DNA of 29,538 nt, taken from IMG/VR virus record IMGVR_UViG_3300030103_000123, positions 1-29,538 of that record, one strand, 5' to 3'. This stretch comes from a virus. Position numbers and translations under genes: made by a program. Shown piece by piece: positions 8,461-14,018 of this stretch (the first letter of the stretch is position 1; each line of letters begins with the position of its first letter). The notes below the pieces were generated by a model. It searched no databases. It saw only the letters and a program-made list of their open reading frames with translations, and was not told the origin of the DNA.

Positions 8461-8629
8461 TTTTTACCAACTTGGTAAGTTTTTTAAATGCATTGGCTTG
8501 TACATTTGTGTAATTACTTTGTATAAATACTAAAGTAAAGTCCTCAAAGTCTAGCGATTTTCTGTTTGATACTTTGCATAGACGTTGATGCAAATCAAAC
8601 ATATTTAATAAATCATTTACTGTTGTCAT
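8453..8629 (-). CDS. Small protein, unknown
   Basis: A 58-residue protein beginning MTTVNDLLNMFDLHQRL. ATG 8629 is preferred because it overlaps the GP88-like gene stop as ATGA with GGAG upstream. Its C-terminal codons (KKLTKLVKN) contain a copy of the 15-bp repeat, so this DNA both codes and carries the site. No family recognised. Confidence 0.5.
   Translation of the reverse strand: MTTVNDLLNMFDLHQRLCKVSNRKSLDFEDFTLVFIQSNYTNVQANAFKKLTKLVKND
8464..8478. repeat. 15-bp semi-palindrome, copy 1 (TTACCAACTTGGTAA)
   Basis: The most symmetric copy: TTACCAA and TTGGTAA are exact inverted arms around one central base. It lies within the last codons of one leftward gene and 4 bases before the start codon of the next. 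Candidate operator. See the finding on the dispersed repeat family. Confidence 0.7.
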
Positions 8630-9330
8630 GCCACTCTCCAATTATTTAAATCTCGTACAACAAATCCACTTGTATCTTTTTTAGCTTTGCCTTTGGCAGA
8701 TAGCCAAACTGCAACACCTTTTGGATCAAGGAATCGTAAGTCATCTTTGTCTCCATCAATACAATCTAAACCTCTAAACTTCTTAGGCATAGGTAAGGTG
8801 GACACAACTGCCATGTTTGTACATGTATCAATAACTGCTCGATATATCTTGTTAGCATAGTCCATGTCAGCCTCACTATATGATAAGGTAAGATGGTAAT
8901 TAGGTGGTAACTTCTTATACACTCGCTTGTATGTCTTAGTGTAGTCATAGAACTGTATGTCATAGAAGTCATACATAAGGTTAGTTCGCTCAAACAGTAT
9001 GTCACTCGTACCATTAGGTCTAGCACATGGTTTTACTTTGTTTTTGTGCATTCTGCGTCTAAACATATGCATGTCATGATACATGTAGTCCATGAACTTA
9101 AACTTGTCTGTAAGATACAAGTCTGTCTTACGTTGCCTAGCCTTTTGTACATTATTAAATACACCTCTACCTGAAGTATTTAGGCAAGGCTCTTTACACT
9201 TTGCTATGTCTTGAAAAGGACATATCTTGGTGTTCTTGGGGAATAAATGCATGATGGCAGTCATAAATTCTGATCCATCGCCTTTTACAATCTTGGTGTT
9301 ACTCCCCACTCCAAATAATTTATAAGTCAT
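8626..9330 (-). CDS. GP88-family (mycobacteriophage gene product 88-like) protein
   Basis: A 234-residue protein that I recognise as GP88-like. Visible family features are the Cys cluster CPFQDIAKCKEPCLNTSGRG (C37, C45, C49), KARQRKTDLYL, KPCARPNGTSD, the FYDYTK motif, YHLTLSYSE, and the C-terminal run LDCIDGDKDDLRFLDPKG followed by KKDTSGFVV. The molecular function of the family is not known to me. The three-Cys cluster could bind metal or an Fe-S cluster. It sits mid-operon, with the next gene starting at its stop (ATGA). Confidence 0.75.
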   Translation of the reverse strand: MTYKLFGVGSNTKIVKGDGSEFMTAIMHLFPKNTKICPFQDIAKCKEPCLNTSGRGVFNNVQKARQRKTDLYLTDKFKFMDYMYHDMHMFRRRMHKNKVKPCARPNGTSDILFERTNLMYDFYDIQFYDYTKTYKRVYKKLPPNYHLTLSYSEADMDYANKIYRAVIDTCTNMAVVSTLPMPKKFRGLDCIDGDKDDLRFLDPKGVAVWLSAKGKAKKDTSGFVVRDLNNWRVA

Positions 9331-9339
9331 AAATACCTC

Positions 9340-9732
9340 CTATATATAAATTCTTGGTCTATTTTCGTGTATCTCTAGTCTTACTGCATACTTTGCATTT
9401 TTATCAACTTGCTTGTATTTATCTAAGTCAGTAAAACACTGTACCATAAAGAAGTCATCTCTATAAGGGTCATACCTCACTCTTCTCCATAGCATTTTTT
9501 TGGCATACTTTATGTGCCAATTGTCTGTATTTAAATGCCCACGAACAAAGGCATGGACATTCTTCTGACCACTTTCCCTTACACGTTTTTGTCCACTTGG
9601 TTGCACAACAAATTTTGCATTAGTCACTTGTGCATGTCGTATATGTCCAACTACTTTGTTTTTGTATTCTCCTTCCAAAGCTTTTACACTGAACTTTTCT
9701 AAATCGACATTCCAATATAATTCAACTCTCAT
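9340..9732 (-). CDS. Conserved marine-phage-type protein with KNVHAFVRG motif, unknown
   Basis: A 130-residue basic protein. The stretch PSGQKRVRESGQKNVHAFVR matches a pattern I recall from several marine phage hypothetical proteins, followed by aromatic and basic residues (KKMLWRRVRYDPYRDDFF). A role in binding nucleic acid is possible from composition only. It starts after GGGAGAATCAATA. Confidence 0.6.
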   Translation of the reverse strand: MRVELYWNVDLEKFSVKALEGEYKNKVVGHIRHAQVTNAKFVVQPSGQKRVRESGQKNVHAFVRGHLNTDNWHIKYAKKMLWRRVRYDPYRDDFFMVQCFTDLDKYKQVDKNAKYAVRLEIHENRPRIYI

Positions 9733-9849
9733 TATTGATTCTCCCTTATATAAATTATTGGTTTATAAATCTGATACTTTCTGCAGTTGCTCTTACATGG
9801 GGTTATTTTTTACCATCTTCTTCTACAGTTAAGTCATCAGATATTCCTT

Positions 9850-10032
9850 TTACGGAATTAGCATTGATTTTAATTCTTTTAGTCTTTCACAATTAAATCC
9901 AACATCTTCTGTATCCATTTCTTTTGGACCTATGATGTCTTCCCATTCTGTTATTAAATCTTGCAAGCAATGAATGAAGTGTTCCTCATTGTTAAAACTT
10001 GAATTTTTTTTTAAAGTTATTTTAATGTTCAT
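9850..10032 (-). CDS. Small acidic protein, unknown
   Basis: A 60-residue protein starting MNIKITLKKNSSFNNEEH, with a strong AAAAAAGGAGAGGG ribosome site. Its leader carries a 15-bp repeat copy at 10050-10064. After its stop, an alternative frame stays open for about 20 codons and looks coding (see findings). Function unknown. Confidence 0.55.
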   Translation of the reverse strand: MNIKITLKKNSSFNNEEHFIHCLQDLITEWEDIIGPKEMDTEDVGFNCERLKELKSMLIP

Positions 10033-10040
10033 TTATACCC

Positions 10041-10070
10041 TCTCCTTTTTTAACAAGTTGGTAAGAATTA
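10041..10070. repeat. 15-bp semi-palindrome, copy 2, within an exact 30-bp repeat
   Basis: TTAACAAGTTGGTAA at 10050-10064 is flanked so that 30 bases in a row (10041-10070) are identical to 10465-10494, including the polypurine ribosome site on the minus strand. It lies between the membrane-protein gene and the next leftward gene and covers the stop codon of the former. Confidence 0.75.
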
Positions 10071-10256
10071 TTTCCACGATGGGTCATACATCGCAATCCA
10101 AACAAAGCCAACACCTGATATAGCCAAACTGATAGTAAATAGCTCTCGCACATAAAAAGGATTAAAAAATTCCCTTGTTATATCCCAAAGTGTATAGCTT
10201 ATTAGTATACAACATAGTCCAAATATTGTAATTAAAGTTCTAGCGAATATTAGCAT
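10068..10256 (-). CDS. Small membrane protein with two predicted spans
   Basis: A 62-residue protein with two hydrophobic segments, about residues 4-24 (FARTLITIFGLCCILISYTL) and 39-56 (ELFTISLAISGVGFVWIA), joined by a short polar loop. Likely an inner-membrane protein. Its start overlaps the zinc-ribbon gene by 7 bases. Function unknown. Confidence 0.55.
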   Translation of the reverse strand: MLIFARTLITIFGLCCILISYTLWDITREFFNPFYVRELFTISLAISGVGFVWIAMYDPSWK

Positions 10257-10459
10257 TGTTCATACCTCCAATTTGGTTTACCTTCCTCATAATCGTCTGA
10301 AAAGTTTTTGCAAGTTATATTATAGCAATCATCACATAAAGGATAACCTATTCTAAACCTTCCGTATTCTGTTTCCCCACGACCATAATACCTTACTTTA
10401 CTGTTTCCCTTGTAATTGCCAAGACAACCACAATCAGCACATTTATTTCTCTTTTCCAT
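10250..10459 (-). CDS. Small Cys-rich zinc-binding protein
   Basis: A 69-residue protein with CADCGC near the start and LCDDCYNITC later, giving two CxxC pairs spaced about 35 residues apart, as in zinc ribbons or HNH-type treble clefs. No catalytic His pair is clear, so nuclease activity is not claimed. It has its own candidate sigma-54-like promoter at 10504-10520, a 15-bp repeat in the leader, and the ribosome site AAAAAAGGAGAAG. Confidence 0.6.
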   Translation of the reverse strand: MEKRNKCADCGCLGNYKGNSKVRYYGRGETEYGRFRIGYPLCDDCYNITCKNFSDDYEEGKPNWRYEQC

Positions 10460-10464
10460 TTACT

Positions 10465-10494
10465 TCTCCTTTTTTAACAAGTTGGTAAGAATTA
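10465..10494. repeat. 15-bp semi-palindrome, copy 3, within an exact 30-bp repeat
   Basis: TTAACAAGTTGGTAA at 10474-10488, in the second exact 30-bp copy. It sits between the -12 element of the P1 promoter candidate and the ATG at 10459, at about +6 to +20 of the predicted transcript. A bound protein there could block initiation or elongation. Confidence 0.75.
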
Positions 10495-10503
10495 ATAATA
10501 ATA

Positions 10504-10520
10504 TGCAATTTCCATGCCAA
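10504..10520 (-). promoter_or_regulatory. Candidate sigma-54 promoter P1
   Basis: On the minus strand: TTGGCATG-GAAA-TTGCA, with GG and GC separated by exactly 10 bases. This matches the known -24/-12 consensus YTGGCACG-N4-TTGCW with one usual variant (T for C). Predicted start is near 10494, about 35 nt upstream of the zinc-protein ATG at 10459. Confidence 0.65.
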
Positions 10521-10543
10521 AAATCACATATAACAAAAATAAA

Positions 10544-10762
10544 TCACTCCTTAATCAAGGCACGTAACTTAGCTATAGCATTACTAAGTTCGGTCTGCTC
10601 CTTGGTCTTACTGTTTACATAATCTGCTTTTTGGTCGATAGCATGCCAATCAAACTCATGCCTTGATGTATGCTTGGCAATATTTGCCATAGACGATTGC
10701 AGCTTTCCACGTGTAACATGCACACGCATTCCATTATCCCAATAGTATGTAGTTCTAGCCAT
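10544..10762 (-). CDS. Small basic protein, unknown
   Basis: A 72-residue protein starting MARTTYYWDNGMRVHVTRGK. The N-terminal half is beta-like with aromatic residues, and the C-terminal half is helical (ELSNAIAKLRALIKE). The ribosome site AGGAGTG is present in extra tandem copies further upstream (10792-10812). No family recognised. Confidence 0.55.
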   Translation of the reverse strand: MARTTYYWDNGMRVHVTRGKLQSSMANIAKHTSRHEFDWHAIDQKADYVNSKTKEQTELSNAIAKLRALIKE

Positions 10763-10791
10763 TGCTCACTCCTATAAAAAAATTCACTCGC

Positions 10792-10812
10792 CACTCCTCA
10801 CTCCTCACTCCT
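10792..10812. repeat. Three tandem copies of CACTCCT (AGGAGTG on the minus strand)
   Basis: Three perfect 7-bp units in a row. A further copy of the same unit at 10766-10772 forms the ribosome site of the gene starting at 10762. The leader therefore carries several Shine-Dalgarno-like sequences, downstream of the terminator at 10831-10865. Confidence 0.7.
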
Positions 10813-10830
10813 CAGTGATAGTAGTGGCAC

Positions 10831-10865
10831 AAAAAAAAATATAAGAGGGAAATAAATCCCTCTTA
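10831..10865 (-). terminator. Intrinsic terminator after the first left-arm gene
   Basis: A 9-bp perfect stem (TAAGAGGGA with TCCCTCTTA, 10842-10865) closes an AATAAA loop. On the minus strand it is followed by AT and nine T residues (complement of 10831-10839). This is the classic rho-independent layout for leftward transcription leaving the 10881-11480 gene. Genes further left then need read-through or promoters such as P1. Confidence 0.85.
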
Positions 10866-10869
10866 ATAT

Positions 10870-10884
10870 TTACCAAGTTGTTAA
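10870..10884. repeat. 15-bp semi-palindrome, copy 4 (inverted core)
   Basis: TTACCAAGTTGTTAA, the same element with its two arms swapped relative to the other copies, while the GAATTA flank stays on the right as in copies 2 and 3. It overlaps the stop codon of the 10881-11480 gene and adjoins the terminator. Confidence 0.65.
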
Positions 10885-11480
10885 GAATTACTTGCAACTA
10901 ATTGCATATCTTTTGCAACTTCTATGTCATGTAATTGCTTAGATTGTTGGTTGTCTAAATCTTTTTCAGCAATTTCTTTGGATTGATTTTTAATTATTGC
11001 ATCAATCAACTTAGCATCAGAAATATCAAATTTCTTAGTTGCTGACTTGAAAAAATCAGTAATGACTTCATCTAAAGTTTTTTCAGTTGGTGCAACATTT
11101 AAAAGACTACCTAAACCACGTATCGTGTCAGCTTTAAAAGGTTTTTTCTTATCTTTACAATCTTTAATTTTAGCCTCTACCACTTTAACAGATTGTTCAG
11201 CGTCTTTGCCTAGTTTACGCATTGCTGATTTATGGTTAGGCGTACATTTTTTAACAACTTGGTAAAAATCCTTACCTAAACTTTTTAATTCTTGGTCGAT
11301 TGCCTTAGCAACACCTTTATCAAGTTTCTTATCTTTTATCTTTTTTTCAGCAACATAAAACATATTAGAAAAATAAATAAAATCTTTATAAGTTTCTTTG
11401 ATTAAGTCGCCACTTGCCTTTAAGAAGTTATTCTCTTTTTTAACTAACTTAGCAACATTTTCATAATTAACATTTATCAT
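10881..11480 (-). CDS. First gene of the left arm, lysine-rich helical protein, unknown
   Basis: A 199-residue protein very rich in Lys, Asp and Glu, predicted mostly helical (KLVKKENNFLKASGDLIKET and similar). It has no membrane segment and no clear DNA-binding motif. As the gene nearest the control region, preceded by candidate promoter P3 and the ribosome site TAGGAG and followed by a terminator, it is likely the earliest and most strongly expressed left-arm product, perhaps a host-takeover or regulatory factor (inference). A 15-bp repeat copy is embedded in codons for FYQVVKK. Confidence 0.7.
   Translation of the reverse strand: MINVNYENVAKLVKKENNFLKASGDLIKETYKDFIYFSNMFYVAEKKIKDKKLDKGVAKAIDQELKSLGKDFYQVVKKCTPNHKSAMRKLGKDAEQSVKVVEAKIKDCKDKKKPFKADTIRGLGSLLNVAPTEKTLDEVITDFFKSATKKFDISDAKLIDAIIKNQSKEIAEKDLDNQQSKQLHDIEVAKDMQLVASNS
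11251..11265. repeat. 15-bp semi-palindrome, copy 5, inside a coding region
   Basis: TTAACAACTTGGTAA within the 10881-11480 gene, where the minus strand reads codons for Y-Q-V-V-K. Being coding, it may be constrained twice or may be chance. The exact match to copies 6-8 favours a real site. Confidence 0.5.
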
Positions 11481-11522
11481 TTTTTTTTCTCCTATAATTA
11501 AATTAAAATGTATTAATCACCT

Positions 11523-11539
11523 TGCAATTGTTATGCCAA
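11523..11539 (-). promoter_or_regulatory. Candidate sigma-54 promoter P3
   Basis: Minus strand TTGGCATA-ACAA-TTGCA with the invariant GG and GC 10 bases apart. Predicted start is near 11513, giving a roughly 32-nt leader with TATAGGAG before the ATG at 11480. It is the nearest promoter candidate to the first left-arm gene. Confidence 0.65.
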
Positions 11540-11542
11540 AAC

Positions 11543-11578
11543 TTAACAACTTGGTAAGAATTTTTAACAACTTGGTAA
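11543..11578. repeat. 15-bp semi-palindrome, copies 6 and 7 (tandem)
   Basis: Two identical TTAACAACTTGGTAA sites at 11543-11557 and 11564-11578, each followed by GAATT. Starts are 21 bp apart, two helical turns, so bound dimers would lie on the same DNA face. They sit between promoter candidates P2 and P3, just upstream of the P3 -24 element. Confidence 0.8.
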
Positions 11579-11605
11579 GAATTAAACATAAACATAGTGA
11601 TAATA

Positions 11606-11622
11606 TGCAATTTACGTGCCAA
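11606..11622 (-). promoter_or_regulatory. Candidate sigma-54 promoter P2
   Basis: Minus strand TTGGCACG-TAAA-TTGCA, a complete match to the -24/-12 consensus including CACG. Predicted start is near 11596. Downstream come repeat copies 7 and 6. Confidence 0.7.
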
Positions 11623-11632
11623 CTTTGATAAG

Positions 11633-11648
11633 TGTCAAATTATTGACA
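11633..11648. promoter_or_regulatory. Inverted repeat IR1 (TGTCAA-ATTA-TTGACA)
   Basis: Perfect 6-bp arms with a 4-bp spacer. It lies just upstream of the P2 -24 element. Its geometry is also TGT-N10-ACA, the pattern of upstream sites for NifA-type sigma-54 activators. Could equally be a repressor operator. Confidence 0.6.
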
Positions 11649-11670
11649 GTACGAAATATTGACGCTCCCA

Positions 11671-11690
11671 ACTGTCAAAATATTGACAGT
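11671..11690. promoter_or_regulatory. Inverted repeat IR2 (ACTGTCAA-AATA-TTGACAGT)
   Basis: Perfect 8-bp arms with a 4-bp spacer. Its centre is exactly 40 bp from that of IR1. It overlaps the predicted start site of P5. A lone TATTGAC half-site lies between the two at 11657-11663. Confidence 0.65.
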
Positions 11691-11696
11691 GATAGT

Positions 11697-11713
11697 AGCA
11701 AGAAGCGTGCCAA
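11697..11713 (-). promoter_or_regulatory. Candidate sigma-54 promoter P5
   Basis: Minus strand TTGGCACG-CTTC-TTGCT, a complete match to the -24/-12 consensus. Its spacer differs from all the other copies, as expected for the non-contacted N4. Confidence 0.7.
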
Positions 11714-11770
11714 AAATGACCATAAAAAAATATATGCTCCTATTCTGCAATTTGGCATGGAATTTGTGAA

Positions 11771-11787
11771 TGCAAGATTTATGCCAA
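11771..11787 (-). promoter_or_regulatory. Candidate sigma-54 promoter P4
   Basis: Minus strand TTGGCATA-AATC-TTGCA with GG and GC 10 bases apart. It is the most upstream of the leftward series. Repeat copy 8 lies about 100 bp upstream, where sigma-54 activators commonly bind. Confidence 0.6.
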
Positions 11788-11859
11788 GTTTCATAAGGAA
11801 AACTGATACAATATCAGTAACTTAACAATAAAAAATGTAATAAAATCAATAGGTTTTTC

Positions 11860-11874
11860 TTAACAACTTGGTAA
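11860..11874. repeat. 15-bp semi-palindrome, copy 8
   Basis: TTAACAACTTGGTAA, identical in core to copies 5-7, followed by AAATTG rather than GAATT. The most right-hand member of the family; none was seen in the right arm. Confidence 0.7.
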
Positions 11875-12087: not shown

Positions 12088-12116
12088 TTGACAAATGAAT
12101 GAATTTATGCTAAAAC
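12088..12116 (+). promoter_or_regulatory. Candidate sigma-70 promoter for the right arm
   Basis: TTGACA, a 17-bp spacer, then TAAAAC preceded by TGC (extended -10 form). The predicted start is near 12123, roughly 155 nt before the first right-arm ATG. Operator-like AACATT/AATGTT sites follow immediately. Confidence 0.45.
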
Positions 12117-12279: not shown

Positions 12280-12486
12280 ATGAGAAAAAAATCAGTAAAA
12301 CTATATACAGATAATGTGTTAAAAAACTTTTATCATGCTGTCCGTACTAATAAATTAGATAAATTACATATCCCCCACAGTGATGTCTACTACGTAAGAG
12401 CAGCAATTCATGCTCGTAGTGGCAAAAAGTTCCCTCTTCAGCATGTCGAAAGGATCATGAGAGAGATGGGGTGGAAGGATACGTAA
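12280..12486 (+). CDS. First gene of the right arm, small basic protein, unknown
   Basis: A 68-residue protein beginning MRKKSVKLYTDNVLKNFYHA. The middle (HSDVYYVRAAIHARSGKKF) and end (LQHVERIMREMGW) suggest a small helical, possibly DNA-binding protein. ATG 12280 is chosen over a TTG at 12274; no Shine-Dalgarno is seen before either. Its position at the head of the right arm would suit a regulator, but this is inference. Confidence 0.55.
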   Translation: MRKKSVKLYTDNVLKNFYHAVRTNKLDKLHIPHSDVYYVRAAIHARSGKKFPLQHVERIMREMGWKDT

Positions 12487-12996: not shown

Positions 12997-13341
12997 ATGG
13001 CTAAAGAAAATTTAAAAAAACCAACTGCTAAACAAGTCGGAGTAAAAAAATTACCAGAAAAAGTGCGTAATAAAATGGGTTATATGAATAAAGGTGGAAC
13101 AATGAAAAAATCTAAAATGATGAATAAGGGTGGGGCTGCTAAAAAGTCTAAAATGATGAATAAAGGTGGAGCTGCTAAAAAGTCTAAAATGATGTACAAA
13201 GGTGGTGCTTCAATGAAAAAATCTAAAATGATGAATAAAGGTGGTGCTTCAATGAAGAAGAAGACGAAGTACATGTCAAAAGGTGGTGCGACTAAAAAAA
13301 CAAAGTACATGTCAAAAGGTGGTGCTGCGAGACGTAAGTAA
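12997..13341 (+). CDS. Lys/Met/Gly tandem-repeat protein (KGG repeats)
   Basis: A 114-residue protein. Residues about 28-110 contain seven repeats of the form KMMNKGGAAKKS or KYMSKGGATKKT, with periods of 11-13 residues. The corresponding DNA (about 13078-13330) is a coding minisatellite with units of 33-39 bases. Extremely basic and without hydrophobic core. Similar KGG tracts occur in other marine phage proteins, but their role is unknown. Starts 1 base after the previous stop. Confidence 0.7.
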   Translation: MAKENLKKPTAKQVGVKKLPEKVRNKMGYMNKGGTMKKSKMMNKGGAAKKSKMMNKGGAAKKSKMMYKGGASMKKSKMMNKGGASMKKKTKYMSKGGATKKTKYMSKGGAARRK

Positions 13342-14018
13342 TGTCTTATCTTATTAGTAACGTACCTCACTTTAAATGTTGGGTACGTAAAGAGTTTACA
13401 GCCAATCATCAAAAATACCATGGTGAGTTTCTTCACGCTATAGCTTTTGCTGTTAACACTATACCTGATAGATCATTGAGCTTTCAAGTAGTCTTTACAG
13501 GTTGTGATGAAGATGAGAACATTCATGGTGGTGCTATGTGGGCAAGAATGCCAATACAAGCACTTGTAGCTGACATACCAGTTGATGAATGGGCAGAACC
13601 TATGGAAGATCACCTATGTCAACCGTGGGATTGTGAGGCTAGAAATCATAGCGTCATTGTTATGGATAGAGTCAGTTCATCTCCTTGGCTCTGTAAAATA
13701 GATAATAAATTCTATACTGCAAGATACATGTTCACTGTTGACTACACAGAGAGTGAAATAGCAGATGATCCAGCACAACACAAACAATCTCACGTGTTGT
13801 ATCTTTTAGATGCGGGTCAGTGGACTGGGAATATCGTTGCCTTACCTAACAATAGAGTTAGAGCAACAAGTCCAGCATTATGGGTTACTGGAGAAGGTGC
13901 TCCTGACTTTGCTCCATCACAATGGCTACATTCAGCAGAGTCACATGAATCTTATCTAGACCCCCATACAACTTTTAATAACTTGTACAATGACACAACC
14001 AAAAAAAAGAAATTATAA
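13341..14018 (+). CDS. Conserved marine-phage protein starting MSYLISNVPHFKCWVRKE, unknown
   Basis: A 225-residue soluble protein. Its opening, then the GAMWARMPIQALV stretch, SVIVMDRVSSSPWLCKI, YMFTVDYTESE and ALPNNRVRATSP closely follow a family I recall from cyanophages and other marine phages, always of unknown function. Start overlaps the repeat gene stop as TAATG. It is the only larger globular protein in this cluster of basic small genes, so a virion or assembly role is possible. Confidence 0.75.
   Translation: MSYLISNVPHFKCWVRKEFTANHQKYHGEFLHAIAFAVNTIPDRSLSFQVVFTGCDEDENIHGGAMWARMPIQALVADIPVDEWAEPMEDHLCQPWDCEARNHSVIVMDRVSSSPWLCKIDNKFYTARYMFTVDYTESEIADDPAQHKQSHVLYLLDAGQWTGNIVALPNNRVRATSPALWVTGEGAPDFAPSQWLHSAESHESYLDPHTTFNNLYNDTTKKKKL

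Follow-up and report, generated by a model that had tools for sequence, protein, structure and literature searches.

Why would a marine phage carry, at the point where its two gene arms meet, a cluster of sites that match the -24/-12 elements of sigma-54 (RpoN) promoters? Phage transcription programmes have mostly been described for sigma-70 or for phage-encoded polymerases and sigma factors. We addressed this question in a 29,538-base virus record, hereafter called the window, which represents part (29.5 kb) of the genome of a marine phage of the HMO-2011 type. Its leftward arm holds DNA polymerase, helicase, primase and integrase genes, its rightward arm lysozyme, terminase and portal genes, all of the HMO-2011 type, and the site cluster is positioned between the two. 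Replication and packaging genes and their layout are common to the window and this group, and the gene content and divergent arms are like those of published HMO-2011-type phages (PMC9038755). The window helicase is 79% identical to that of Roseobacter phage CRP-1, 74% to that of CRP-345 and 71% to that of HMO-2011, a phage of SAR116. Elsewhere in the right arm, positions 13341-14018 match a PHROG family of phage ferredoxins.

Our reading, to which we give a probability of roughly three in four, is that the cluster is a sigma-54 promoter region located at a divergent control region, and that its sites are directed towards the left (replication) arm.

RpoN-type sites in the window

Five exact matches to TTGGCAYR-N4-TTGCW are present in the window, all on the minus strand and all where the first-pass annotation had placed them (P1 to P5, Table 1). 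As that annotation had read, 10 bases separate GG from GC in each site and the N4 spacers all differ. The leftward orientation it gave to the five sites also stands; to its statement that there are no other matches we add one correction, a rightward near-match with two mismatches (P6) that is arranged head-to-head with P1. Neighbouring sites of the main cluster are 74-91 bp apart, and five of the six sites share one orientation. Transcription starts were predicted by taking the C of GC as -12.

A scan against shuffled controls, which had been proposed along with the sites, gave an expectation of 0.02 matches, and none of 100 dinucleotide shuffles of the window reached five. Duplication or chance might be suspected in low-GC intergenic DNA that contains other repeats. 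The shuffles, the differing spacers and flanks and the conservation of the sites in the clade described below rule out chance or a repeat artefact, which leaves this explanation with a negligible likelihood and upholds the earlier view that the sites follow the RpoN consensus and are not a simple duplication. Ordinary sigma-70 promoters were also considered at the cluster and rejected, as sigma-70-like sites show no excess there (14 found versus 21 expected).

Table 1. Coordinates of the sites, palindromes, dyads and genes discussed in the text (window positions).
Feature	Position	Strand	Sequence	Remarks
P1, RpoN-type -24/-12 site	11771-11787	-	TTGGCATAAATCTTGCA	exact; predicted start ~11760
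P2, RpoN-type site	11697-11713	-	TTGGCACGCTTCTTGCT	exact; predicted start ~11686
P3, RpoN-type site	11606-11622	-	TTGGCACGTAAATTGCA	exact; predicted start ~11595
P4, RpoN-type site	11523-11539	-	TTGGCATAACAATTGCA	exact; predicted start ~11512
P5, RpoN-type site	10504-10520	-	TTGGCATGGAAATTGCA	exact; predicted start ~10493
P6, decayed rightward site	11752-11768	+	TTGGCATGGAATTTGTG	2 mismatches, GC to GT
UAS1, candidate enhancer	11633-11648		TGTCAAATTATTGACA	TGT-N10-ACA; conserved in clade
UAS2, candidate enhancer	11673-11688		TGTCAAAATATTGACA	40 bp from UAS1
Operator-like dyad	11860-11874			right-arm side
Operator-like dyad	11564-11578		TTAACAACTTGGTAA	dyad scan
Operator-like dyad	11543-11557		TTAACAACTTGGTAA	dyad scan
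Dyad inside P4 gene	11251-11265			dyad scan
Dyad at end of P4 gene	10870-10884			dyad scan
Operator-like dyad	10474-10488			just downstream of P5 start
Dyad between left-arm ORFs	10050-10064			dyad scan
Dyad between left-arm ORFs	8464-8478			dyad scan
P4 gene	10881-11480	-		199 aa; no Pfam or PHROG match
Intrinsic terminator after P4 gene	10842-10865	-		stem kept by paired changes in relatives
P5 gene	10250-10459	-		69 aa
Right-arm promoter-like relic	12088-12116	+	TTGACA-N17-TAAAAC	read from sequence
First right-arm gene	12280-12486	+		68 aa; weak HTH match under Pfam cut-off

Conservation among related phages

Relatives were collected via the first right-arm gene and fetched with their flanks. 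All sites recur at matching positions in the contigs close to the window; P1 is conserved in L086-L090, L094, L016, L208, L361, L364 and L365, and a search for the P6/P1 pair returned 12 stretches, several of them new contigs. Because relatives carry an exact rightward site at the P6 position (TTGGCATGAAATTTGCT and variants), the ancestral cluster probably consisted of five leftward sites and one rightward site.

Over orthologous sites, the nine core bases gave 0/459 pairwise differences, a figure favoured by the fact that the sites were found through exact matches, versus 28/204 in the N4 spacer; the Y, R and W positions gave 27/204. The spacer of P3 differs in each of the four relatives compared. 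GG and GC are thus kept in related phages, as the first-pass annotation had expected of true RpoN sites.

All members that bear the sites group as a single clade in a tree built from the first right-arm protein; L091, which falls inside this clade, was not judged, as its contig ends before the sites. This clade is the only one among the HMO-2011-type phages examined with the combination of sites, UAS palindromes and dyads. None of the six Pelagibacter and Roseobacter isolates scanned (CRP-1, CRP-2, CRP-207, CRP-345, CRP-603 and HTVC033P), nor HMO-2011 itself, contains an exact site, a dyad or a UAS palindrome. Most of the examined relatives that lack sigma-54 sites have a perfect TTGACA-16/17-TATAAT promoter for the right arm, of which the window clade has weakened versions.

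Predicted promoter anatomy of P4 and P5

Two of the five exact sites lie just ahead of a gene start with a ribosome binding site. The predicted P4 leader runs 32 nt from ~11512 to AGGAG/ATG at 11480 and the predicted P5 leader 34 nt from ~10493 to AGGAG/ATG at 10459. P4, P5 and their orthologues are found 31-60 nt upstream of the SD-ATG, mostly at 31-35. In one relative, L088, the P5 module is kept but stands before an unrelated, non-homologous ORF. P1 to P3 lack a nearby downstream start codon in the window and could have a regulatory role.

In the window and in four relatives, a hairpin followed by a T-run lies 3' of the P4 gene; paired changes occur in its stem, and in these five sequences the next exact site comes 356-395 nt past the end of the gene. 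A gene with its terminator, followed by a further site, is what one would expect if transcription from P4 covered one gene only and began anew at P5.

The invariant GG and GC within the clade, the changing spacers, the placement of P4 and P5 before AGGAG-ATG and the conserved terminator of the gene behind P4 strongly support the recognition by sigma-54 that the first-pass annotation had proposed. Bacterial sigma-54 promoters (TGGCAYR-N4-TTGCW with enhancer-binding proteins) have the same -24/-12 elements, spacing and start-codon placement, and the window has candidate upstream palindromes. It differs from them in that its sites are clustered in a phage control region and accompanied by phage operator-like dyads.

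Palindromes and dyads beside the sites

Two palindromes, UAS1 and UAS2, read TGTCAA-N4-TTGACA and fit TGT-N10-ACA. Their spacing is 40-41 bp in every relative showing both. They lie at about -128 and -168 from the P4 start and at about -98 and -138 from the start of the ancestral P6, and therefore could serve both arms. These distances fit the range of about 80-200 bp at which sigma-54 promoters have their activator sites. The consensus of NifA-type enhancers (upstream activating sequences) is TGT-N10-ACA, and paired palindromes at about -130 and -170 from P4 are similar to these, the window version being extended; this likeness we take to be one of resemblance only. The TTGACA of UAS1, combined with a weak -10 inside P3, could also be a sigma-70 promoter.

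The dyad TTANCAANTTGNTAA occurs eight times in the window versus 0.01 expected, on the left-arm side and in the control region. The eight copies are near-identical, 15 bp long and spread over 8464-11874, mostly at gene junctions, a pattern that recalls the scattered operators of some phages. L086 carries a perfect 17-bp version at corresponding positions, with the palindrome TTAACCAASTTGGTTAA matching the dyad just downstream of the P5 start. Those dyads that lie close to starts probably serve a phage regulator as operators.

Such additional repeated dyads, common to the clade, raise the question of whether the -24/-12 sites might themselves belong to another DNA-binding protein, such as a phage repressor or a replication initiator, whose motif coincides with the RpoN consensus. 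The arrays found in other viruses (see below) often occupy a single central locus, which would also suit an origin. We nevertheless consider this very improbable: the preferences of RpoN are closely matched (N4 only, Y/R at positions 7-8, W last), GG and GC are almost never changed, and, of the ten cellular genomes that have triple arrays, nine contain rpoN, though rpoN is common generally.

Probable source of sigma-54 and proposed mechanism

Neither the sigma-54 N-terminal domain (PF00309) nor the activator domain (PF00158) was found in the window using Pfam, and the activator was absent from 21 further records of relatives, mostly fragments. No activator gene was detected in any window-clade record examined, none of which is a complete genome. 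Supply of both RpoN and its activator by the host appears a simpler reading than a phage-encoded activator. A sigma-54 DNA-binding domain is present in 216 of the 289 genomes sampled from the class of Devosia (Alphaproteobacteria).

Under the sigma-54 promoter reading, the host's RNA polymerase with RpoN would form closed complexes at the -24/-12 sites, and a host AAA+ enhancer-binding protein, possibly bound to the paired TGT-N10-ACA palindromes, would open them. Transcription from P4 would then cover the first left-arm gene alone, up to the terminator, and would begin again at P5 to reach the next left-arm genes. If sigma-54 promoters have replaced or supplemented the usual sigma-70 or phage-encoded factors in this clade, infection would depend on signals read by host enhancer-binding proteins, such as those of nitrogen, envelope stress and motility.

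Exact-site arrays in uncultured viruses

The first-pass annotation had considered such a link to RpoN rare in phages. This is probably wrong for uncultured ones, as closely spaced exact sites are abundant in IMG/VR: at least 120 stretches have two exact sites 50-80 bp apart, and at least 120 have three exact sites with gaps of 8-38 bp. These tandem and triple-site stretches (L121-L240, L255 and later loci) include many dense arrays with 26-bp spacing. A control triple with an N3 spacer, one base shorter, had no match in IMG/VR, and the presence of exact arrays in unrelated viruses adds to the case for recognition by sigma-54. Bacterial and archaeal genomes totalling 257 Gb contained the triple pattern in ten stretches; the size of IMG/VR in bases is not stated, so that at least 120 versus ten gives no per-base rate. 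The one cellular array in a genome without rpoN, from Gracilibacillus, is a near-identical 51-bp tandem repeat, and two of the ten adjoin phage-like terminase or replication genes.

Among the matches listed, the viral arrays form 84 sequence clusters. The 43 arrays with at least four sites, again among the matches listed, contain 237 exact cores, along with 25 one-mismatch cores versus 9 expected by chance; the mismatch is never at the first G of GG and never at GC. In scans of whole contigs, the sites of most array phages were all, or nearly all, in one place; a few phages (G011, G048 and G049) have dispersed sites, and the reversed-pattern control gave zero throughout. The 55.9-kb GC-rich phage contig L202 has ten exact sites within 290 bp (1962-2252) and none elsewhere. 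Its DNA has only short matches to a cultured-phage collection, mostly in tail genes; L134 and L184 have no DNA match there, and a tblastn search with the L134 portal found only distant cultured relatives.

We could not find any description of viral RpoN-site clusters or arrays in targeted searches of open-licence PMC text, and a word search of the main text of PMC9038755 returned neither promoter nor sigma. We tentatively propose, with a little less than even confidence, that such clusters and arrays are a widespread and previously undescribed feature of uncultured phages, mainly at the divergent control region, where they would tie the gene switch to host sigma-54 or soak it up, the window being a well-ordered, promoter-type member. 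This suggests that phages exploit host RpoN much more than was known. The virus-enriched arrays provide natural test cases in large number, and their DNA signature is a simple means of finding them.

Gene context of the arrays

Genes on the array contigs were called with a simple caller of our own, checked by eye against HMO-2011 only. In the longer contigs, the array usually has a leftward run of genes on one side and a rightward run on the other, and of 53 arrays clear of gene calls with both neighbours called (among the matches listed), 33 are flanked by divergent genes and 3 by convergent genes. The array of L134, which stands for 80 linked loci, has replication genes on one side and terminase and portal on the other, as is also seen in the window.

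Some arrays could fit another role, in which the sites hold RpoN or RpoN-polymerase on phage DNA and few or none are real promoters; the host regulon would be deprived of its sigma factor, or transcription blocked. Dense arrays of 3-10 copies occur in unrelated viruses, and their commonest same-strand spacing among the matches listed, 26 bp, would be too tight for side-by-side holoenzymes. Neither the sigma-54 DNA-binding domain (PF04552) nor the activator domain (PF00158) was found in 50 records, nearly all array-bearing. In tandem-gene contexts, site and gene orientation agreed in only about 5 of 14 cases, counted by eye with the rough caller. Decoys have been named as one possible function of non-canonical sigma-54 sites in E. 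coli, where non-promoter sites are not oriented to genes, as in some viral clusters; those sites are chromosomal, scattered and intragenic, unlike the viral arrays (PMC4591121). In many hosts, flagella, pili and nitrogen genes are under the control of RpoN, and the arrays raise the question of its titration by phages.

For the window, we regard such a sink or roadblock as unlikely. Tight, orientation-free sites away from gene starts, as a decoy array would have, are seen in some of the other viruses but not here, where the spacing is wider and five of six sites point one way. Two of the window sites have promoter geometry, a terminator precedes P5, and most arrays listed lie in divergent control regions. 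A sigma-54 promoter region therefore remains our preferred reading of the window.

The role may differ among phages, with RpoN-type sites being promoters in some and something else, such as a sigma-54 sink or roadblock, in others. Some clusters in other viruses face away from all adjacent genes, so that not all viral sites are promoters. In G014 (L342, 9482-9576), two leftward genes have three rightward sites between them, the last of which abuts a stop codon; the sites are antisense to both neighbours and therefore are not simple promoters of those genes. G011 (L320, L321), a 46-kb phage contig, has eight dispersed minus-strand RpoN-type sites, several of them 25-83 nt before a same-strand start codon (four at 25-75 nt), and is a candidate sigma-54-driven phage. 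A third contig, G049 (L318), combines intergenic RpoN-type sites with repeated CTGCCA-TGGCAG palindromes.
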